Source of the DNA: a bacterium
GTDB lineage: Bacteria; Patescibacteriota; Gracilibacteria; Absconditabacterales; Absconditicoccaceae
Direction of reading: 5' to 3'
Length of the DNA stretch: 64,000 nt
Assembly: GCA_020627925.1 (NCBI GenBank)
Contig: JAHDFY010000001.1
Location: 127,297-191,296, forward strand
The position numbers and the translations under genes are program-made. The stretch's first letter is position 1; each line of letters opens with the position of its first letter. Positions 22,738 to 46,863 of the stretch are shown piece by piece. A model generated the notes under the pieces. It had not been told where the DNA came from and ran no database searches. It saw only the letters and a program-made list of their open reading frames with translations.

Positions 22738-22759
22738 ACGATAACTATATGAATTTTTT

Positions 22760-22788
22760 TTGAAAAAGTGTTGTATTTTTTGTATGTA
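22760..22788 (+). promoter_or_regulatory. Possible sigma70-type promoter for a short transcript
   Basis: TTGAAA at 22760-22765, a 17-base spacer, TATGTA at 22783-22788. It lies about 40 bases upstream of a 28-codon frame and about 180 bases upstream of a strong terminator. Confidence 0.4.
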
Positions 22789-22826
22789 TTAATAAAAAAC
22801 ATAGTACTTTATCTTTCAAAACGCAG

Positions 22827-22913
22827 ATGAACAGAGTAACAAAACTGTTTATTATTCTGATCTCAATCCTCTCTCTTGCGGGTAGGACGCGTTTTTGATG
22901 GAATAAAAACTAG
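22827..22913 (+). CDS. Tiny hydrophobic peptide or part of a small RNA
   Basis: 28 codons from ATG to TAG with one TGA Gly. Residues 7-19 form a hydrophobic stretch (LFIILISILSLAG) flanked by basic residues, and a Trp lies near the end. It sits alone between a possible promoter (22760-22788) and a strong terminator (22942-22978), so it may be a leader or membrane peptide. The transcript may equally be non-coding. Low confidence because of length. Confidence 0.3.
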
Positions 22914-22941: not shown

Positions 22942-22978
22942 GCTTCTTACTCGCTCAACCGAGTAAGAAGCTTTTTTT
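22942..22978 (+). terminator. Strong rho-independent terminator
   Basis: 12-base perfect stem GCTTCTTACTCG / CGAGTAAGAAGC, loop CTCAAC, then seven T. It is 220 bases past the previous gene and 22 before the next, so it most likely ends a separate short transcript. Confidence 0.85.
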
Positions 22979-22999: not shown

Positions 23000-24613
23000 A
23001 TGAGAGTCACAACAAATCCATTTCCTGATACTAGACATAAAAATATTGAAAATGTCGATAATTACTCCGTTATACTTCAAGGTGAGTCAAAAGAAAATAT
23101 AACAAATGCGATGAACATTGAAACAGTTGGGGTTGATGAAAATGAATATAAACATAAAACAGCAACATCTAAAGAAATAGTCAAAATAATCTCAGATCAG
23201 CCAATTACGTTTGTAAGCTTTGACGAAAATGAAACTAAAAAATATAGACAATTTCAAGACGATAGGAATTTAAATTATCCAATTAAGGTATGATTAGATT
23301 CGTTTAATCATCCACTAGGGCATCCGGTAATTGTCTCAAAAGAAATTGCTCAAAAATGAGCTCAAAATTTACTAAATAGGTCAAATAGGTTAAAGGATAT
23401 CATTAAAAAAAGAGAAGATTTAGAAGAGATACTAAAATGAAAAGAATTGTCTTTATTTTGACATTCTTTAAAAACACCTGAAATTATGGATCAAATTGTT
23501 GATATGATTCAGTCATGATTTACTATGCCCTATGTAGATGATTACCTAGTAAACAAGAACTGAAGTATAGATCGTTTAGAAGAGCAAGCTTGATGGTCCT
23601 ATTTTTCTTGGTTAAATTCTAAACAAGATGCTGCAGTTCATACTAATCAAGATTTTTTTTCTAACTTTGATAGATATGTTTGAGATCCATTTAAGGTCTT
23701 TGAAGAGTTAAAAGAAATTGCCGGAGAAAATGAAATATTTTTTCTATGAGTTGATTCCACAACATGAGTAACATCAGGTGATCATATGTGACAAGCAAAT
23801 CTTTTATCAAAAAACAATGATGCTTTGCCTTTATTAGTGGCAAATGTGTATCGCAATTGAAGTGAATGGTTTTGAGATTTTGTTGACCCTAAAGGAAATA
23901 TTACAAAGCGCGCTGTGCCAGTAAAAACTATCTACTCTAGAGTTATTCCATGAAGTTTAAGGAAGCTTGAAAAACAGTTTTGATATGAAGTATTGGAAGA
24001 TTGATCTGTTATTAATAATTGAGATCTCAAAAGACAAAGTGAATTAGTCGATTTTTTTACTGATTCAAAACTGCAATGGTTTGGTCATCCAATATTAGAA
24101 ATTCTTATCAATAAGTTAGATATGGAGGAAGTCATTAAACCATGAGAAACTGTTAAGCCATGACATTATTTTGCAAAACAAATAGATGGAAATAGTTGAG
24201 CAGTGTATGAAGTGACTGTTCGTTATGCAAATAATTGAGAGTCCGCTATGGATTTTTGGAATGACGACAAGTCATTTAGAAAAATAGTGTTAGAAAAAGA
24301 TCAAGATTATGTTGTTGAAGATAATTACGTATATCATCCTAAAATAAAAGCAGCACCTTTACTTGTTCCTGTAAAGCATAAATGAGTCGTTTGTACTGCA
24401 GAACTACGTTTTATTAGTGGTTGATGATTTAATCCAGCTGTGATTATGGCTGCCAGAGTTGGTTTAAGAAGGGATGTGCAATCTGGAAATCTTGCAAAAA
24501 CTAATGTAGGTTCTATCGTATCAAATTATAAAAATTATATGAAACAAGCAGGTGAGTATTATGATGAAAAAGAAATTCCATTTTGATATCATCCGGTTTT
24601 TATTCAAAAATAG
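23000..24613 (+). CDS. Unknown cytosolic protein heading the ATP-grasp/peptidase cluster
   Basis: 537 aa from ATG 23000 to TAG 24611-24613; soluble, with no signal peptide. I do not recognise the family. Visible traits: a helical region at about 110-150, an aromatic-rich stretch near GWSYFSWLNSKQDAA, conserved-looking HPLGHP and WFGHPILEILINKL, and a beta-rich C-terminal part with GHYFAKQ, VVCTAELRFISGGGF and VGLRRDV. About two thirds of its glycines are TGA, the heaviest recoding in the window. It is followed after 30 bases by an ATP-grasp gene, then three hydrolase genes on the same strand. A role in making or using an amide-linked small molecule is inference from context only. Confidence 0.75.
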
Positions 24614-24643
24614 TGTATTTATTTATTGATTCTTGTTGTTAAA

Positions 24644-26281
24644 ATGGATAGTTCAAGAAGATTCCACCATTCAAACCAAACTGCGTTAAAGTGATTTACT
24701 CGCTTGACTAATCAATCAGAGAGTCTTAGTGTTAAAAAAATGTTTAGGATGTTAAAAGAATCTTTTAGCGATTTTGATGAGGTCTGGTTAGTATCTGATG
24801 TTTCATCAAAAGCGTCAACTTTAATTGATTTTGGTATTATTGATCAGATTGATTTGATTCACGCAGATAATCATTTAGGAGATAAAACTAATTTATTTAT
24901 TCCAAAGCCTCCAAAAGTTGATGATCAATATTTTAGAGATCTTGTTGAGATAGATCAAAAAGCTATCGCAGAGCAATTAAATAGGGTTAAAGAATGATGA
25001 AAAAGTGTTTTTGTTGTTATGCCCTGGGCAAATTCTAACTTAGAGTTTTTGGTTGCCACTATGTGATTAAAAAACCAAGTGATTCTTGGTAGTCCACTAA
25101 ATTCCAAGCGAAATTTTGAGTTAGAAGATAAGGAATTTTTTTCAAAAATGATGGATGAGTTAAAGGAAAAAAAGCCTCAAATTGAAAGCTGAGTTATTCC
25201 ATGGATGATGATGGATAAAAAATTGACTTATGATAAAATATTGCAAAAATTTAATGTAAAAAATGGTCATCCAATATATATCCAAAAAACTCTTTCTGCT
25301 GGGGGGGATGGTACTCGTTGTTTTAAATCAAGAGAGGAATTTAAAAAAATTAAAACAGAATGGTTTGATTTTATTGCTGACCAGAAAGTAAAATTATCTA
25401 TGTGAGTTACATGAAAAAATGGTTTAGAGGCTTATCCTTCCAATTTTCAAGCATGTATTATACCAGATTGACAAGAATGTCATGTTATTATTGATGCTTG
25501 ATCCCATAAACCTGTTGGGCTAAAATCTCTAGGCTTTGGAGAACTAAAGTCATGAGTTGGTAATGACCGAGGTACTCCTCGATGAAAAAAAATAAACAAA
25601 CAGGCTGAAATAGTTATTACAGAAATGTGTAAAAAGCTTTATGATGATTATGGCTATACAGGAATAATTGGTATTGATGGGCTAAAATCTTATTCAGAAG
25701 AATTTTGAGAGCATTTTAAATTTAATGAACTAAACCCACGTTTTCAATGAACTACACAAGCACAAAATTACAATGCATTAATGAATGATCAACCTTCAAT
25801 AGAATTTATTCATTATTTAGTAAAGCTTGCTAATAACGATAAATCAAAAATAGATGCAATAAAAGATTTAATTGGCGATCCAAAACACTATAATGAAAAG
25901 GCAATGAATAGAAGTTGAGGGTACTATATGAAAATAATGCCACCTCTTGAATCCAAAGTGGTTACGAACGATGTGAACTGATCTTATCTGCGAAATGGAA
26001 AAAGAGCAATTAAGCTAGAAGATAAACCTTCTTTAAGAGAAGTATATATGAATAAAACAAAGAACGGTGAAGTAATGGAACCATTGCTATGACACGTTTT
26101 TGTATCAGTAAAATGACCTCAAAAAGGCTCTACTGTGGGGTGACAATCTGCAACTAAGATTTGAATGATTTCTTGACAAGGTTTATCTGTTTTTGAAGAC
26201 AATAGACCAGATGTTACTAAAGAGTGAAAGGTATTATACGATTATTTTTTAAATAAAATGTTCGAAAAAGAACTAGAATAA
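24644..26281 (+). CDS. ATP-grasp-fold ligase, probable peptide or amide synthetase
   Basis: 545 aa. ATP-grasp enzymes join a carboxylate to an amine through an acyl-phosphate. The N-terminal part (to about 150) resembles the pre-ATP-grasp domain, with LVATMGLKNQVILGSPLNSK. The central ATP-binding lid has YIQKTLSAGGDGTRC near residue 218, and the metal-binding end has FNELNPRFQGTTQAQN near 359. Substrate is unknown. It lies between an unknown protein and an M32 carboxypeptidase, with 24-30-base gaps, suggesting one operon. Many glycines are TGA. Family call good, reaction inferred. Confidence 0.8.
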
Positions 26282-26305
26282 TTATATTTACTGAGATATA
26301 TTACA

Positions 26306-27769
26306 ATGATAACACCACTTCAAAAATTTCAAAACATGACTAAAGAGTTAAAACATCTTGAATGAATAAGAAGACTTCTCCTTTGGGATAAAGCAAATTT
26401 TATGCCGCTTTCATGATGATCAGATAGAGCTCACAAATTGTGATTAATAAAAAAATACACTTCAATGATCATTCAATCAGATGAACTTTTATTTTTGCTT
26501 GATGAAATTTCTTGAAACAAAAAATCTCCTAATTATATAAAAGCGTCTTTGAATCGTATACGTGCAAGAGTAAACAGGTTAAGAAAAGTTCCATTAAACT
26601 TTTTGGAAGATTATGAAGTGCTAAAAAGTCAAAGTATTTCGGCTCGAAAAGAAGCTAAAAAAAATAATGATTATAGTTGATATTCTTCAACTTTGAGCAA
26701 GGTTTTTGATTATACAAAGCGTTATGCTGAATTTATAGATCCAAACAAGGATCCTTATGATATTTTATTAGACCAATATGATCAATGATTAACAAAGGCA
26801 CAAATTTCGCAGCTATTTTCTTCTCTATCTAGGGATTTACAAAAAATACTGCCAGAAATTAGTTCTGTGTTTATAAATGTGTCTCAGCCACATATAAAGC
26901 TCTCAAAAAGAGAGCAAAAGGATTTCCTTGAAAACCTCTGTTCAATTATATGATTTGACTTTAAACGCGGTCTTTTGTGAGATGTAAATCACCCTTTTGA
27001 ATGCATGGTAGGTATTGATGATATTCGTATTAATACAAACTTGTCTGATTTTTTTTTCTCTTATTCTTCAACACTACATGAACTAGGTCATTGATTGTAT
27101 GAACAAAACATAAATCCTGATTTTTACCACGTTGACATATTAAGTGTTGCTTCAAAATCTGTCGATGAAGCACAAGCTCGCTGATTAGAAAATATCATTG
27201 GAAAAAGCAAAGAATTTGTTGAATTTGCAGTAACTATTATGAATAAATTTACTTCTAATAGAGTAGACCATGATGAATTTTATTCATATATAAATAAAGT
27301 ATGACCATCAAAAAAAAGAATTTATGCAGATGAATTGACTTATAATTACCATATTATTCTTAGATTTGAGTTAGAAACAAAGTTACTTTCATGAGAATTG
27401 AAATTTGATGACTTACCAGAGGCTTGGAATGAAAAAATGAATGCATATTTAGGAATATCTGTAGATAATCCATCTAATGGTTGTCTACAAGATATTCATT
27501 GGGCAGGGGGTGATATTGCATACTTTCCAACTTACACAATAGGAAATATTATTGCATCTCAAATATGGAATGAGTTTAACAAAGAAAATAAAAACTTTTC
27601 TCAAGACATTGTTAAGTGAGACTTTTCAAGATATTTTTCATGGTATAAAAATAATATTCGAAATTTTGGGGCAACTAAAAAGCCAAATGATCTAATAAAA
27701 GATATTACATGAAAAGAACTCTCTAGTAAGTACTTCGTAGAGTATCTTAGAAACAAATTTACTAAATAA
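26306..27769 (+). CDS. M32 family metallocarboxypeptidase (Taq type)
   Basis: 487 aa, cytosolic zinc carboxypeptidase that trims peptides from the C-terminus. HELGHGLYEQ near residue 257 supplies the HExxH zinc ligands (the second Gly is TGA). DEAQARGLEN takes the place of the usual HESQS element, with Asp where the family often has His. DIHWAGGDIAYFPTYTIGN near 398 is the family's C-terminal signature. Length is normal. Third gene of the cluster. Confidence 0.92.
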
Positions 27770-27785
27770 TTTCTTCTATCATCAT

Positions 27786-28718
27786 ATGAATTTTGTCAAA
27801 AAAGTATTGAATGTATCAACTCATCTTTCTGGAAATAGTATAAATATTGTAACATATTCCATATCAAAATGAAACGGACCTAAATACTATATTCAATCAT
27901 GAATGCATGGTGGTGAGATAACTTATTGGATTCTCGAAAAACTTTCAAAAATTTTGAAAGACTCAGATTTTAAAGGAACTGTAATTATTGTTCCTATAGC
28001 AAATCCTGTTTCTCGAATGCAAAGAAATTACTACTCAACTAATGGAAAATTTGACAATTATGATGGTAGAGACCGGAATAGAAATTTCCCATGAGATAAA
28101 AACTGAAAATTATGAGAACGTATTGCTCATGCTCTTTTTTCTTTAGCCTCTGACGCTGATTTTGTTGTAGATTTACATACTTCAAGAGCTAGTTTTCCGT
28201 TTTCTATTTTTTCGTGAAGAAGTAACAAAGAATTTGTAGAATCTTTTGGACTAGAGTTCAATTATTATGTGTGAGAAGAAGAGCCACATAATTATACTTG
28301 ATCGCTATCTTGATCTTTTTTATCTTCCCCAAATATAACTCTTGAATGTGGCTCCCATGATTCGTTTGAGGAAGAAAATATTGAAAAATCACTCAATGCA
28401 CTTCTTAGATCTCTAACTAAATATTTAGGTTTAAATTATAAAATTTTACCATCAAGTAATTTAGTTCGTTATTATTCGAAAATCAATACTTATAATGCTG
28501 TAACTTGAGGTTTTGTTTCTTTTCAAAAAAAAGTTGGTGATAATTACACAAAATGAGATGTGCTATATACCATTCATACACCATATAATTTATGAAAAAA
28601 ACAAAATATACTAGCTCTTGAAAATTGAATAGTTCAAAAGCTTTCTCCAACGCATATATATTGGCCAGGAGATGAAGTTCTGCAAACTATTCCTAATGAT
28701 TGATTTATTAAAATTTAA
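27786..28718 (+). CDS. AstE/AspA-type zinc amidohydrolase (M14-like)
   Basis: 310 aa. Succinylglutamate desuccinylase/aspartoacylase family: hydrolyses an N-acyl amino acid or similar amide. SGMHGGEITYW near residue 40 gives the His and Glu zinc ligands, DGRDRNRNFPG the substrate-carboxylate Arg pair, DLHTS near 128 the third ligand, and LECGSH near 186 the catalytic Glu. A C-terminal beta domain ends the protein. It starts 16 bases after the M32 gene and ends 4 bases before the M20 gene. Substrate unknown; many TGA glycines. Confidence 0.87.
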
Positions 28719-28722
28719 ATTG

Positions 28723-29835
28723 ATGTCTACTTTTATTTTAGAATTTACCAAAAAACTTTGTGCAATTCCTTCTGTTTCTTCGGACATTGAGCAGTTACAC
28801 GAAGTGATTGACCTAATACAAAAGGAATTTGTTTCCCTAGAGTGAGCAGTAGTGCAAAAAATTGTGCATAATCAAAAGCCATCTTTGTTGGTGCAAAATT
28901 TTGAATGAAAACATGCCGATATTGTATTAAATGCGCATATAGATGTGGTTCCACCTTCTTCAAATGATCAATTTGATGCATATGAAAAAGATGGAAGACT
29001 GTATGCACGTTGAGCCTGAGATATGAAAGCCTGAGTTGCTATTATTGTCTTACTTATGAAGGAGTTATTGCAAGATAAAGAAATGAAGCTCAATATAACA
29101 TTGATGCTCACTTCTGACGAAGAAGTAGGAGGTTTTGATGGTGTTGGTTTCTTAGTCAAAGAAGGTTATACATGAGATGTTGTACTTATTCCTGATGGAG
29201 GATCACTACAAAAAGTGGTGCATGCACAAAAATGAATTTACATGGCGAAAGTACAGGCAACCGGAAAAGCGTGTCATAGTGCTAGACCATGGCTTGGTGA
29301 AAATGCTTTGCACAACATTGTTAATTACTTCCAAGTGCTCAGAGATGAGGTGCAAGATACTATGGCTGTATACCAGTCAAATGATCATTGGGGAACGAGT
29401 GTTAATCTCAACATGCTTCAGTGATGAGAAACAATGAATGCGGTACCCGATTTTGCGACAGCAAGTATCGACATAAGGTTTACCGAAAAATACTCATTAG
29501 AACAAATAAAAAAGAAGGTTGTAAGTCAAATGCATTCTTTCAACTGTCGCCTTACCAAAGAGTTAACAGGAGAGTTATTGTATACAGATCCAGCCAACAA
29601 AAACCTACAACAATATTTGCAAGTAGCCTCAACGGTTTTGGGAGAAGAAGTTTCATTAGAAAAAGAACATGGTGGTTCTGATGGAAGATTTTTCCCCGCA
29701 GCCTCAACGGTTATTATTCATAGACCAACGTGTAGTAATATTCATGGAAAAGAAGAATCTGTGGTAATAAATGACTTACAAAAAATTTATGATATCTATA
29801 AACAATTTATTTATTATTACCAAAAAGAGGCTTAA
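28723..29835 (+). CDS. M20 family metallopeptidase/deacylase (ArgE/DapE type)
   Basis: 370 aa two-zinc amidohydrolase. NAHIDVVPP near residue 73 gives the first His and catalytic Asp, ARGAGDMKAG near 98 the bridging Asp, TSDEEVGG near 131 the catalytic and ligand Glu pair, and EHGGSDGRFF near 316 the last elements. The dimerisation insert lies between about 180 and 290. Starts 4 bases after the preceding stop, so translation is probably coupled. A strong terminator follows, ending the cluster. Confidence 0.92.
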
Positions 29836-29848
29836 AAGCCTCTTTTTT
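29822..29848 (+). terminator. Terminator ending the ATP-grasp/peptidase cluster
   Basis: Stem AAAAGAGGCTT / AAGCCTCTTTT with a short AA loop, then a T run; the TAA stop lies at the apex. The A run on the left could let it serve the convergent gene too. Confidence 0.8.
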
Positions 29849-29872: not shown

Positions 29873-31030
29873 TTAATTATTTAATGCATCCAGTAATTTA
29901 TCTAATTCGCTAATATCATCTTCAATAGTATCTTTGATCGTGGTATTTTCTTTATCCAAAAGCATTTTTTGTAGTTCTTCAATTCTATTGAGAATGGTTC
30001 TTACAATAGCAAGCCCTCTTGTGTTTTTTGTCGCCTTAAACTCTCCTTGTTTTCTCTCGATATCATCTTTTATTTGGTCAAGTTTTGCAACATAGTCATC
30101 AAGCGCCCCATCAGACAAAACAAAAGCGTCTTCCAAATCATCAAAACTTTGATCATAGTCACTATCAATATTGCTCACCGAAGTTGCTCCATTATTGCTG
30201 TTTTGGTTAGGAAAATCACTATCCCAAGCGTCACGAGTCTGATTACTGACGGCAATGGAGTCTGAATTATTTGAAACAATATTGTCTTGCGCTGCAATAC
30301 TATCCGCAATAGGAGTTGCAATAGCTTCTTCTCTAAGGGTTGGGGCTGGCTGCTCTCACGTTGGTGTTGTGTTTTGATTGTCTGGAGCGGGTGTTAGGTT
30401 GTTTTTTTCATTTCTGATGACACTTGCAGTAAGATCACTGTAAAGTGCCACAACCTGTTGTTCTATATTTGCTACTTCTACAGGATAGAAGATAGCCGCA
30501 ACAAAGTATAGACCATACAGACCTCCACCAATCAATACTAATCCCATCATTCTTTTTATTATCCCACCAGATTTTTTAGGACTTGGTGTTGATTCTGCTT
30601 TTTCTATTGACTGTAGTAGTTCATTTTCTTGGGTGGTAGCATCCTTATTGTCCGATGTAGTTATATTTCAAAGATCAAAACCACCTTGCGATTCTTGCTG
30701 TTTTTCTATTGCTGCATCACTAACAACGCTAGTAGCAGCTAAACTATCAATATCAAAACCATTACTAGTAGCTTCTTTGTTACTAGCTGGCGTTGTAGAT
30801 GATGATGTATTTTCTGTTTGTGTTCACATTTGATGAGCAATGATAGCATTCATATCTATTGCTTGTGTCTCTGCTCATTTTTCTACTGAATCAACTGGCT
30901 TTTCGTCATTTATTCCTTGAAGAAAAGAATCAGTCGTAAAAGAAGAAGCAACATCTTGGTCATTGTTTCCAATAGGCGATGATGCTGTGGTAGGAATTGT
31001 TATTTTTTTTTGATCATTAGGATTGAACAT
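29873..31030 (-). CDS. Single-pass membrane protein with disordered Ser/Thr/Asn flanks
   Basis: 385 aa from ATG 31030 to TAA 29873-29875. A low-complexity acidic cytosolic part (residues 1-150) ends in basic KSGGIIKR. One membrane helix (about 162-182, MGLVLIGGGLYGLYFVAAIF) and a Pro/Thr/Asn linker follow. The C-terminal domain is Asp-rich and helical (DDYVAKLDQIKDDIERKQG), with coiled-coil character. No enzyme motif. Few TGA codons. It is downstream of comF on the same strand. Confidence 0.7.
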
Positions 31031-40885: not shown

Positions 40886-43800
40886 ATGAATTTGAAAAAG
40901 TTGTTTGCTAGCTCAGCATCAGCACTTCTTGCTGTTACTGCTGTACTACCAGGTATGACTATCGCTGCTGATAGCCAATACTCACAAACACAACTTGATG
41001 CATTTACAGCTGTATACGATGCTGGTATCGTATCTAGCTCTTTCACAGACATCAACGATGCAGGTGGAATGCTAAGTGCTCAAAGACAAGCGTTTGGAGT
41101 TTATATGAGAAGACTAGCTGATAAGCTAGCTGAATCTGGGTTGATCCCACTAGAATTTACTGTAACAGGTTGTGAAAATCTTTCTGATATGGCAGATTTC
41201 ATGAACCCTACAATTAAACAATTGAATATTGAATCTTGTCAACTAAATCAACTTCACGCGAAGAATGATAAAGCAAGAGACAAAGCATACCCAGAACTAG
41301 ATACTTCTTTTGGTCAAGCATACGCTGCCCTAGGTAAGTACATGTTTGGTGAAGATGCTCAAGACTACGGTGTAGTTGGAGAAAAGAAACACTTCGCTGA
41401 AGGTTTCCACAACAAACTTACAGACGAAGGAATCGCTACAAATCTTTCTGATAATTTTGACCAACCAATGAAAAGAGCCGACATGTTCGTTCTATTCAAG
41501 GATGCTATGGATTATGTAGAAGACCAAGACGATTCTGATGATGACTTCTGTATTGAAGGACTAGAAGATCTTCTAGGTGAAGATGCATGTGATGACTCAG
41601 ACGATTCTGATGATTCTGATGACTCAGACGATTCTGATGATACTGATCTTGACAACAAAGAAGGATCTCTAGATGTTTCTCTTAACTCAGACTCTCTTCC
41701 TGCTCAATCTTCAATTCCAAGTAACGGAACTGTAACTATGGGTATCTTTGATATGGAAGCTTCTGGTAGTGATATCATGATTTCTTCTGTTGAATTGAAA
41801 AGAAGAGGTCTAGGAGACAAAGAAGATATTGATAGAGTATATTTCGAAAAAAACGGAGTAAGAATCTCATCAAGATCTAGTCTAACATCTGACGATATGG
41901 CAACTATTACTTTTGCTCCTGCACTAGTAGTAAAGAAAGGTTCTACTGAAACATTGGATCTTGTTGCAAAATTCGAAGGAGATTCTGGTTCAGAACACTA
42001 CTTTGAAGTTGTGGGAGTAATTTCTTCTGCAGCATCTAGTGATACTAACGTGTCAACAAATATCGTAAGAACAACTTCATACACAGTTGGAAAGCTTAAA
42101 GTAGAAAAAAGAGGAGCTGCTACAACTCATAGAGCTGGAGACTCAGACTCTCTAGAACTAGGACAATTCAGACTTCAAAATACAAGTGCTTCAACAAGAG
42201 ATATTCTTCTAAAAGCTATTACTTTGAGACAAAACGGTACTGCTGATTTGGATGAAACACTAGCTGATATTGCTCTTTACAGAGATTCAGACATGATTTC
42301 TACTGACTGGATTCTTGATGGAAAAGATATTACCTTTATCGTTGATGGAGATATTCTAGACGACGGTCAAAGTGCTACTTACTATGTAAGAGGTGATGTT
42401 ACATACGTTGATGATACATCTGGAGATACATATGAATTCTCTGTAAGAAACACAGAAGATGTTAATGCTGTAGAAAACTCAACGAAGTTTAGAGTAACTA
42501 TTGATACTTCTTCATTAACAAATGGTAAGCTAGAAAAGTATACTGTTGAAGCTTCTGATGTAACATTCAGAAGAGAAACAGGATCATATGATCTATCTCA
42601 AACATTGACACCAGGTTCTGATGATGTTATTGTTTTCAAGGGTACAATTACTTCTCTAGAAGCAGTACAATTGGAAGACCTTAGACTAAATGTTACTTCT
42701 ACAGAAAATATCTATGATGTAGCTAATCAATTCACATTTACTGTTGGAAATGCTAGTGCAACATGGACACCAGCATCTGGTCAAACAAGCCTTACTGCTG
42801 AGTTTGATGGAACATTCCTAGTAGATGGAACTGAAGATGTTATGTTGACAGTTGATATCAAGTCAGATGCTCCTGCAGCAACACTTGATGTTACTCAAGA
42901 TCTTTCTATTGATAGATTTGACCTAAAAGAATACGTAGGAAACAACAATGTTATTCAATCTGCAGTTGGAACTATCGCATCGTCTTTCTTGACTATCGAT
43001 ACAACAACACTGAACGTAACAAGAACAGATGGAAACACTGATAGAACTATCGTTGCTGGTGCAAATGATATTCTATTGATGGGAACTACATTCTCTACAA
43101 ATGATAACATTAACATCAGAATTACACAAATTCAATATACTGGTGATAATGCAACATTCAATAATGACGTGACTGTAAACATGTACGTTAATGGAGTTGT
43201 TGTTGATACAGCAACATACAGAAACAACTTGCTTTCATTCAATGGATTCAATATTGATGTAACAAAGAACGCTCCTGTACTAGTAGAATTGAAAGCAGAT
43301 TTTGCTCAATCTCTAACTGGTGGAAATGCTCTTAACTTGACTCTTTCTTCAGTAAATGCTACTGACGCAAACAGTCAAATCGTAAATCCAACACCTGCTA
43401 CTATAGCTGCTGCAAAAGTAACTATGTCAGATGCTGGTTCTGCACAAGTAACTACAAACTCTAATACTCCATCAGCATCTCTTCTACCTGGAGGAGCATC
43501 TTCTATCGAGTTAGCTAGATTTGATGTTACTGCACAAGATGATGAAATTAAACTAACTGATGCATACTTCGGAAACAAATCAGACATTAGCCTAAACAAC
43601 AGACTATCTCAATACAAATTGTATGATTCTTCTGATATGGCTAATCCTATCGCGGTTGCTACACCAAGAGATGGTGGAATCGCTTTCGAAAACATGTCAT
43701 CTGCTAACTACAAAATTCCTTCAGGAGTGACAAGAACTCTTGTAATCCTAGCAAACATTAATTCAGTGCTAAACACATCTGATTTGGCTGCTTCAGGAGT

Positions 43801-44404
43801 ACAATTGGCTCTATCTGGATCATTTACCAACCCTACTACAGGACAAGTTGGAGGTCTAAGATTCATTTCTTCTAATGGTGCTACAGTTACTACAGTAACT
43901 AATGCTTCAGGTCTTGTGATCGGAAACGAACACAGAGTTGTAAGAGGAAAACCTACTGTTGCTCTATTGCCTACAGCATCATGGAATGTTGCTGAAAGTA
44001 ATAGCCGTGTAATGGAATTCACTGTTACAGCTGATAACAATAGAATTACAGTTTCAGGATTCGACTACTCAATTAACGGAATTTCTGGAACAGTTGATAT
44101 GAAAGTCTACAAAAGTAATAAGTCTCCAGGAAACCTTATTGCAACAGTAACAAACGTTGCTAATGGTACTGATGGACATATTGATGTTGTTGATCAAGTA
44201 ATCAATGCAGGTGCTGGACAAAGATTCATCGTTGAATTTGAAGGTTACCAACCAGCTGGTGGACAATTCGCTATCGCGAGAGAGTTCCTAATCACTGATG
44301 TTGCTTACTTTGATATGTTCAATGATGGTAACTTGTTGATTCCTAACGCTGCAAGCTATGTAAACGTTGGAAACTTCCCACTATCTGAAACATACTCACA
44401 ATAA
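40886..44404 (+). CDS. Giant S-layer-like surface protein
   Basis: 1172 aa with a clear signal peptide (about residues 1-27, ending TIAADS). An N-terminal helical domain (30-215) has SLH-like alternation (FTAVYDAGIVSSSFTDIND). An Asp/Ser repeat linker (about 214-257, DSDDSDDSDD) follows, and then a long series of beta-sandwich-like repeats rich in Thr, Ser, Asp and Asn. No catalytic motif. Not one in-frame TGA occurs although glycine is common, and codons are strongly uniform (GGA/GGT, AGA, CTA), as for a very highly expressed gene. The Asp runs may bind calcium. Probable main surface-layer protein; no sortase motif seen. Confidence 0.83.
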   Translation: MNLKKLFASSASALLAVTAVLPGMTIAADSQYSQTQLDAFTAVYDAGIVSSSFTDINDAGGMLSAQRQAFGVYMRRLADKLAESGLIPLEFTVTGCENLSDMADFMNPTIKQLNIESCQLNQLHAKNDKARDKAYPELDTSFGQAYAALGKYMFGEDAQDYGVVGEKKHFAEGFHNKLTDEGIATNLSDNFDQPMKRADMFVLFKDAMDYVEDQDDSDDDFCIEGLEDLLGEDACDDSDDSDDSDDSDDSDDTDLDNKEGSLDVSLNSDSLPAQSSIPSNGTVTMGIFDMEASGSDIMISSVELKRRGLGDKEDIDRVYFEKNGVRISSRSSLTSDDMATITFAPALVVKKGSTETLDLVAKFEGDSGSEHYFEVVGVISSAASSDTNVSTNIVRTTSYTVGKLKVEKRGAATTHRAGDSDSLELGQFRLQNTSASTRDILLKAITLRQNGTADLDETLADIALYRDSDMISTDWILDGKDITFIVDGDILDDGQSATYYVRGDVTYVDDTSGDTYEFSVRNTEDVNAVENSTKFRVTIDTSSLTNGKLEKYTVEASDVTFRRETGSYDLSQTLTPGSDDVIVFKGTITSLEAVQLEDLRLNVTSTENIYDVANQFTFTVGNASATWTPASGQTSLTAEFDGTFLVDGTEDVMLTVDIKSDAPAATLDVTQDLSIDRFDLKEYVGNNNVIQSAVGTIASSFLTIDTTTLNVTRTDGNTDRTIVAGANDILLMGTTFSTNDNINIRITQIQYTGDNATFNNDVTVNMYVNGVVVDTATYRNNLLSFNGFNIDVTKNAPVLVELKADFAQSLTGGNALNLTLSSVNATDANSQIVNPTPATIAAAKVTMSDAGSAQVTTNSNTPSASLLPGGASSIELARFDVTAQDDEIKLTDAYFGNKSDISLNNRLSQYKLYDSSDMANPIAVATPRDGGIAFENMSSANYKIPSGVTRTLVILANINSVLNTSDLAASGVQLALSGSFTNPTTGQVGGLRFISSNGATVTTVTNASGLVIGNEHRVVRGKPTVALLPTASWNVAESNSRVMEFTVTADNNRITVSGFDYSINGISGTVDMKVYKSNKSPGNLIATVTNVANGTDGHIDVVDQVINAGAGQRFIVEFEGYQPAGGQFAIAREFLITDVAYFDMFNDGNLLIPNAASYVNVGNFPLSETYSQ

Positions 44405-46188: not shown

Positions 46189-46863
46189 TTAATTATTATA
46201 GCAACCACATCCGCTGTAACTATAATAACTATTTTTTCTTTCATAGCCCTCTTCATACCAACCATTTAGGCGGCATGAGAAGCCTTCATTAGCTACTTCT
46301 TCAGAAAGCTCAGGAGTAACCAATGCTGCAGGGTAAGTATAATCATGAGTGTCAACTTTTTTTACCCATGCGCTTACGCATAGACAATTCTCACCCTTTG
46401 GAACTTTAATATAGATAACATCTATATTTTTTCCATTCCCGCAGCTTTTTGCTAGCGTGACCATTTGAGGTCTTGAGCTGCAAGGACCTTCTTTTGTTCC
46501 TAAAACTAGGTGTTCATTATCACTTATTTTTATACCTCTCACCTTCAAAGTACACTGCATTGGGTAAGTAGTGCCACTACAAGAAGGCGTTAAGTTTTTG
46601 GTAAATACATCATTAACTCCCCAAATAGAGTCAATGCCATTACAGCTTTTTACGTAGAGTTGATATTGAATAGCATCATCTGGGTTGCTATTTTCAATGA
46701 CAACTTCATATGTATTTGTGGTAGCATCGCTACTCACAATACCGTTGTTACTTAGAACAACATTTTCTGCAATTTTTTGAGCTGCAGCAAACTCATCTTT
46801 TTGACATCCTATAGAAATTACTATAACAGCAATAGGCAAAAAGAATAATAAGATATTTTTCAT
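46189..46863 (-). CDS. Cys-rich lipoprotein, unknown function
   Basis: 224 aa. The signal peptide ends in the lipobox ISIGC (cleavage before Cys20), so it is a lipid-anchored outer-face protein. About a dozen Cys (KSCNG, PSCSG, QCTL, CLCVS, FSCRLNGW, GCGCYNN) suggest several disulfides, which the thioredoxin-like lipoprotein at 13858 could help form. No recognised family. No in-frame TGA at all despite many glycines, which sets it apart from most neighbours and suggests strong expression or recent import. Confidence 0.78.
   Translation of the reverse strand: MKNILLFFLPIAVIVISIGCQKDEFAAAQKIAENVVLSNNGIVSSDATTNTYEVVIENSNPDDAIQYQLYVKSCNGIDSIWGVNDVFTKNLTPSCSGTTYPMQCTLKVRGIKISDNEHLVLGTKEGPCSSRPQMVTLAKSCGNGKNIDVIYIKVPKGENCLCVSAWVKKVDTHDYTYPAALVTPELSEEVANEGFSCRLNGWYEEGYERKNSYYSYSGCGCYNN

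Follow-up and report, generated by a model that had tools for sequence, protein, structure and literature searches.

A cluster of five genes was analysed in a 64,000-nucleotide stretch of bacterial DNA (hereafter the window; assembly GCA_020627925.1, contig JAHDFY010000001.1, positions 127,297 to 191,296 of the forward strand) from a member of the Absconditicoccaceae. The cluster encodes a protein of no known family (P1), a divergent predicted ATP-grasp ligase (P2) and metallohydrolases of the M32, AstE/AspA-like and M20 families. The five genes form one operon, whose reading frames exist only when TGA is read as Gly (genetic code 25), and neighbourhoods of ligases and hydrolases were found to recur in other genomes with the ligases and peptidases swapped. 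The source assembly is 1.27 Mb in size with a completeness of about 96%, and by its genetic code and relatives it falls within the code-25 Patescibacteria.

Layout of the locus under genetic code 25

Translation with code 11 split the region into small open reading frames (ORFs). With code 25, five long ORFs were obtained on the + strand at 23000-29835 (Table 1), containing 25, 21, 15, 14 and 9 TGA codons in genes 1 to 5 respectively and separated by 12 (30 with the ATG start of P2), 24, 16 and 4 bases. The product of gene 3 aligned nearly full-length with solved M32 carboxypeptidases across 15 TGA codons, and read-through of TGA is supported because the homology spans these codons. An earlier sequence-only reading had described five same-strand genes with gaps of 4-30 bases, and this arrangement was reproduced, in code 25 only. 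None of the five N-termini resembled a signal peptide on direct reading, which gives the proteins a cytosolic look.

Table 1. Coordinates of the operon genes and flanking hairpins, numbered from the first base of the window
Feature	Position	Strand	Description
Gene 1 (P1)	23000..24613	+	537 amino acids, code 25 ORF; assigned to no family, perhaps a divergent ATP-grasp ligase
Gene 2 (P2)	24626..26281	+	551 amino acids from TTG 24626, alternative ATG 24644; predicted divergent ATP-grasp amide ligase
Gene 3	26306..27769	+	487 amino acids; M32 carboxypeptidase Taq family
Gene 4	27786..28718	+	310 amino acids; AstE/AspA-like zinc hydrolase
Gene 5	28723..29835	+	370 amino acids, frame open from 28672; M20 metallopeptidase
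Hairpin and T tract	22942..22978	+	upstream of gene 1; HlyD gene terminator or operon-leader attenuator
Hairpin	29822..29848		overlaps gene 5 stop codon; shared with convergent gene 29873-31030

Terminators had also been claimed on both sides. Both hairpins folded far more stably than shuffled sequence, the upstream one (22942-22971, followed by seven T) at -18.9 kcal/mol with a z-score of -7.5 and the downstream one (29822-29847) at -13.7 kcal/mol with a z-score of -4.9. Only about 22-29 bases separate the end of the upstream hairpin from the start codon of gene 1, and because of this short distance the hairpin may serve the operon leader besides ending the upstream gene. The spacing is too short for a promoter and leader of the usual kind; the hairpin may be an attenuator, or the transcript may be nearly leaderless (TATAAAT at about 22977). 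A leader riboswitch was rejected, since the leader had no match in Rfam and its folding outside the hairpin was not unusual. The interval from the HlyD-like gene to the operon contains a 54-amino-acid code 25 ORF (22749-22913, + strand) with the hydrophobic stretch MNRVTKLFIILISILSLAG, for which a leader peptide, a gene remnant and chance are all possible.

The mean G+C content of genes 1-4 was 0.30, compared to 0.35 (standard deviation 0.023) in the other genes of the window, and their TGA use was high; one other window gene equals them in low G+C. Horizontal transfer of genes 1-4 is only suggested by these values. Elsewhere in the window, genes at 40886-44404 and 46189-46863 used TGA for 0/84 and 0/16 of their Gly codons, compared to 20-70% in most neighbours, and their products had no match in Pfam.

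The putative ligases and the three metallohydrolases

P2 contains the motifs SAGGDGT at residue 224, GIDG at 349 and the metal-binding ELNPRFQG at 368, spaced as expected for an ATP-grasp protein. All ATP-grasp matches of P2 alone were below threshold in Pfam. A five-sequence profile (P2 and four distant relatives) matched biotin carboxylases in the PDB (2e-8) and a RimK-like profile (9e-5, about 200 columns). P2 is on these grounds assigned to the ATP-grasp superfamily, with a predicted amide ligase activity; its subfamily could not be assigned because the best profile matches were biotin carboxylases. Around GxxGxD...ExNPR the profile was weakly like the peptide ligases 8ynd/8ynq, the L-propargylglycine--L-glutamate ligase 8yi6 and PGM1 (3wvq), with E only 0.01 to 0.6. 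Foldseek searches with a low-confidence model of P2 returned mostly ATP-grasp proteins, all at E>0.05. Relatives of P2 were absent from 192 genomes of the class; the best in the phylum sample was from candidate division CPR3 bacterium 4484_211 (G013, E 3.9e-15), and a motif scan of genome contigs yielded this metagenome-assembled genome, one chance frame and nothing else. A viral match from the P2 motif scan, on a contig resembling phage DNA, was discarded as a reading frame that arose by chance.

P1 was unmatched in Pfam, NCBIfam, PHROGs, PADLOC and PDB sequences, and also in IMG/VR, plasmids, phages, GTDB genome contigs and 287 genomes sampled across the phylum. A known defence system was rejected as well. 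One relative, found only by a same-family search, is encoded in genome G335 (genome-level E 8.4e-11, blastp 4e-18), and a two-row profile built from the pair gave no further match better than chance when searched against 269 genomes of the class and 275 of the phylum. The G335 homologue carries YYIKPENGNSGSGGGGIYI (a KPxxGxSGxGGGG loop) followed by an ExR strand motif. A loop of the YYIKPENGNSGSGGGGIYI type with ExR is the pattern of ATP-grasp peptide ligases (PMC4431377). The full KPENGNSGSGGGG loop occurs in the G335 homologue and is absent from P1; KxxxGNSG and ExR are common to both (KQIDGNSG and ELR in P1). By a slight balance of probability, these motifs suggest that P1 belongs to the ATP-grasp superfamily, and it may be a divergent ligase. 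The sequence-only reading had placed P1 in no family it knew, which agrees with the empty library searches, but a relative and a candidate superfamily can now be named.

The families proposed for genes 3 and 4 were supported. Gene 3 matched the Pfam M32 family (2e-136) and PDB entry 1k9x (4.7e-81), and its zinc site is intact, with HELGH at 258 and the downstream Glu ligand in DEAQ at 287, which aligns to HESQ of 1k9x. Gene 4 matched AstE_AspA_cat (Pfam, 1.1e-19), with 3fmc (9.5e-13) and 2qj8 as the closest solved structures; its motifs HGGE, NRNFPG, DLH and LECG are intact and supply the HxxE...H zinc site, NRxFPG and the catalytic Glu.

Gene 5 matched Pfam M20 (1.7e-27) and PDB entry 2rb7 (2.4e-38), was also related to DapE and fell under every NCBIfam cut-off. 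Its H-D-E-D-H ligands and catalytic Glu are present (AHID 71, GDMKAG 99, DEEVGG 132, PDG 157, IHG 340). In alignment the discriminating ligand was Asp in 8/8 M20 proteins (gene 5 and seven relatives), whereas it is Glu in DapE (E164 in VcDapE; PMC4012986). In M20 enzymes Asp at this position denotes an aminopeptidase or dipeptidase and Glu an aminoacylase or carboxypeptidase (PMC6271292, citing Lindner et al. 2003). Gene 5 lacks the Glu of the DapE/aminoacylase subgroup, and the residue indicates a predicted dipeptidase/aminopeptidase type. The Asp ligand makes 'dipeptidase' preferable, as a working name, to the 'deacylase' of the sequence-only reading.

Recurrence of ligases beside M20 and AspA-like genes

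Among 45 same-family genomes, eight (source genome included) hold a close relative of the M20 protein, and the flanks of all eight were read. A ligase, either ATP-grasp or GCS2-like, lies beside the M20 gene in 5/5 loci of the clade of gene 5 (window, G335, G339, G453 and G409) and in 0/3 loci outside it (G456, G368 and G463); the M20 tree separates the ligase-adjoining from the other loci exactly, with support of 100/100. In G339 an ATP-grasp gene lies 16 bases upstream of the M20 gene (Dala_Dala_lig_C 7e-4, ATP-grasp_3 9e-4, both below the curated Pfam cut-offs), in G453 an ATP-grasp-like gene is convergent to it (YheC/D model 0.0012, below the curated cut-off) and in G409 a GCS2-like gene overlaps its start. 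The chance of 4/7 loci (window left out) adjoining a ligase was estimated as 4e-6 to 1e-4, with an assumed count of 10-25 such ligases per about 1,100 genes. A naive Fisher test of the five-versus-zero split, with kinship ignored, gives a probability of 0.018.

The G335 locus is a one-strand cluster of M29, M24, the P1 relative, an M49-like peptidase, a GCS2-like gene (gcsA), a Trp-repressor-family (TrpR) regulator (Pfam 5.4e-15; L067:12002-12358), a GCS2 gene (gcsB) and M20. The M49-like protein has HELGH and matches to dipeptidyl peptidase III-type PDB entries (3.6e-4 and 0.0064), gcsB is over the Pfam GCS2 cut-off (2.8e-6), and the M20 protein is 45% identical to gene 5. The labels of gcsA and of the G409 gene come from a GxExE motif and mutual similarity (7e-13), and the only PDB match of the GCS2-like profile was YbdK at 0.16. 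The regulator hints at amino acid control of the cluster. G335 and the window thus share P1 and M20, and the other ligases and peptidases differ between the two loci.

A second pairing joins P2 to the AspA-like hydrolase. In CPR3 4484_211, which belongs to another class, an AspA-like gene directly follows the P2 relative, and its product is 33% identical to gene 4 over the full length (E 5e-50). Ahead of these two genes stand those for a HAD-family phosphatase (Pfam 1.2e-14) and a 371-amino-acid protein with no Pfam match (L018:16518-18507). Elsewhere in the phylum, some of the AspA-like genes less closely related to gene 4 lie beside GCS2-type genes (G216, G051), RimK (G327) and an Asp/Glu racemase (G114). 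That a ligase beside metallohydrolases is no accident is supported by the recurring P2 and AspA-like pair and by an M20 clade whose members all adjoin ligases. G159 (L047:5392-7397) has a further AspA-M20 pairing, in which the two genes share one base and no ligase is in view. In the code-25 genome G339 the M32 gene has CRISPR-array-like repeats upstream (L020:7658-8662, translating as FNTTLVQLR/FQYYISSAK), and a possibly Cas1-like ORF was seen at L020:6251-7252.

Proposed function and alternatives

With about even confidence, the operon is proposed to serve a cytosolic cycle that makes and unmakes a short peptide-like amide. P2 would activate a carboxyl group with ATP for attack by an amino group and so couple amino acids to each other or to an acid of another kind; P1 would probably act beside it as a further ligase. 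Trimming of intermediates and degradation of the product for reuse would fall to the AspA-like hydrolase, the M32 carboxypeptidase and the M20 dipeptidase. The direction of flux, the role of P1 as a ligase and a product that is free rather than protein-bound were all three inferred. Linked amide ligases often act successively in the synthesis of peptide-derived metabolites (PMC4431377).

Several results weigh against this proposal. Among all data searched the complete five-gene set was seen in the source genome only, so that the refuting outcome named in the sequence-only reading, five genes that are nowhere else neighbours, holds for the set as a whole and not for its parts. M32 relatives in three other genomes of the class (G339, G368, G345) have no adjacent ligase, and of the five genes M32 accordingly seems the least constant. 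The GCS2-like labels of G335 gcsA and the G409 gene have no Pfam match behind them. The likeness of P1 to ATP-grasp ligases is one of motifs; hhalign of the two-sequence P1 profile against ATP-grasp profiles was negative. AlphaFold models of P1 (single sequence) and P2 (five rows) reached predicted local distance difference test scores (pLDDT) of 35 and 38, both of unusable confidence, so that structure prediction, suggested earlier as a check on P1, confirmed no fold. Substrates are not deducible from sequence.

The closest known systems are amidoligase-peptidase neighbourhoods with ATP-grasp, GCS2 and AspA/M14-type hydrolases, in which distinct amide ligases share one operon (PMC4431377, citing earlier work). 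In the window the ligases are likewise accompanied by hydrolases of amide bonds, but the ligase families are new and have hardly any known members, the three metallo-exopeptidases differ in fold, and a clade of M20 enzymes is the constant partner. Glutathione-type synthesis by GCS and an ATP-grasp synthetase resembles the G335 locus, with its GCS2-like and possible ATP-grasp proteins, and by analogy would give a short peptide; the window, however, has no GCS2 gene, P2 was not GshB in any library and peptidases lie inside the operon.

A different use of the same enzymes would be peptide scavenging, in which three exopeptidases digest imported peptides to amino acids and the ligase or ligases have a minor task, for example storing or detoxifying a single amino acid. 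Auxotrophic bacteria of the candidate phyla radiation (CPR) require amino acids, the hydrolases are of exopeptidase type (three in the window, four in G335) and the TrpR-family regulator of G335 would fit. Cytosolic-looking N-termini and the lack of a peptide transporter in the operon nevertheless count against a pure scavenging unit, and ligases stand beside M20 and AspA-like genes across genomes too regularly for a side role. Scavenging is considered unlikely, at somewhat over one chance in five in our judgement.

Tagging of a protein or cofactor, with ligases adding amino acids as RimK does and the AspA-like and other hydrolases removing or recycling them, is less probable again. The AspA-like gene adjoining a RimK-family gene in G327 also combines an AspA-like hydrolase with an ATP-grasp ligase, and protein modification has been predicted for several divergent ATP-grasp families (PMC4431377). 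P2, at about 550 amino acids, is nevertheless of another ATP-grasp family and not RimK-like by Pfam, no target protein gene lies in the operon, and the dipeptidase-type site of the M20 protein fits small peptides.

A cluster for a graspetide-like ribosomally synthesised and post-translationally modified peptide or another secondary metabolite, with an ATP-grasp enzyme modifying a precursor and peptidases maturing the product, could draw on the 54-amino-acid ORF with its hydrophobic stretch ahead of the operon. It is very improbable, given that the gaps of 4-24 bases hold no precursor gene, P2 matched no graspetide ligase in any library, the peptidases are exopeptidases rather than leader peptidases and the operon has no exporter. 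The LysX/LysK logic invoked by the sequence-only reading, amino-group protection on LysW during amino acid synthesis, shares an ATP-grasp ligase and an M20 hydrolase with the window and was rejected as scarcely credible: LysW (TIGR01206) had no match at E<=10 in the genome, an absence that is not absolute at about 96% completeness, 3/14 control genomes were over the cut-off and served as positive controls, the M20 protein has the dipeptidase-type Asp and the operon has no amino acid biosynthesis genes.

Set against the known theme of amidoligase-peptidase neighbourhoods, two things are new: the families of P1 and P2, which have almost no other members, and, in code-25 bacteria, an M20 clade linked to ligases that can be exchanged for one another. 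The ligase-linked M20 clade provides a simple marker for locating further such loci.

Patescibacteria, with genomes of about 1 Mb, are thought to import nearly everything. In such an import-reliant cell, ATP-spending amide formation with dedicated breakers would therefore point to a metabolite worth its cost. More speculatively, code-25 Patescibacteria may possess a portable peptide-metabolite module, in which a constant, distinct M20 dipeptidase clade is combined with ligases (several ATP-grasp kinds, GCS2) and exopeptidases that lineages exchange; P1 would then found a new amide-ligase family, and an undescribed short peptide would matter to these reduced epibionts.

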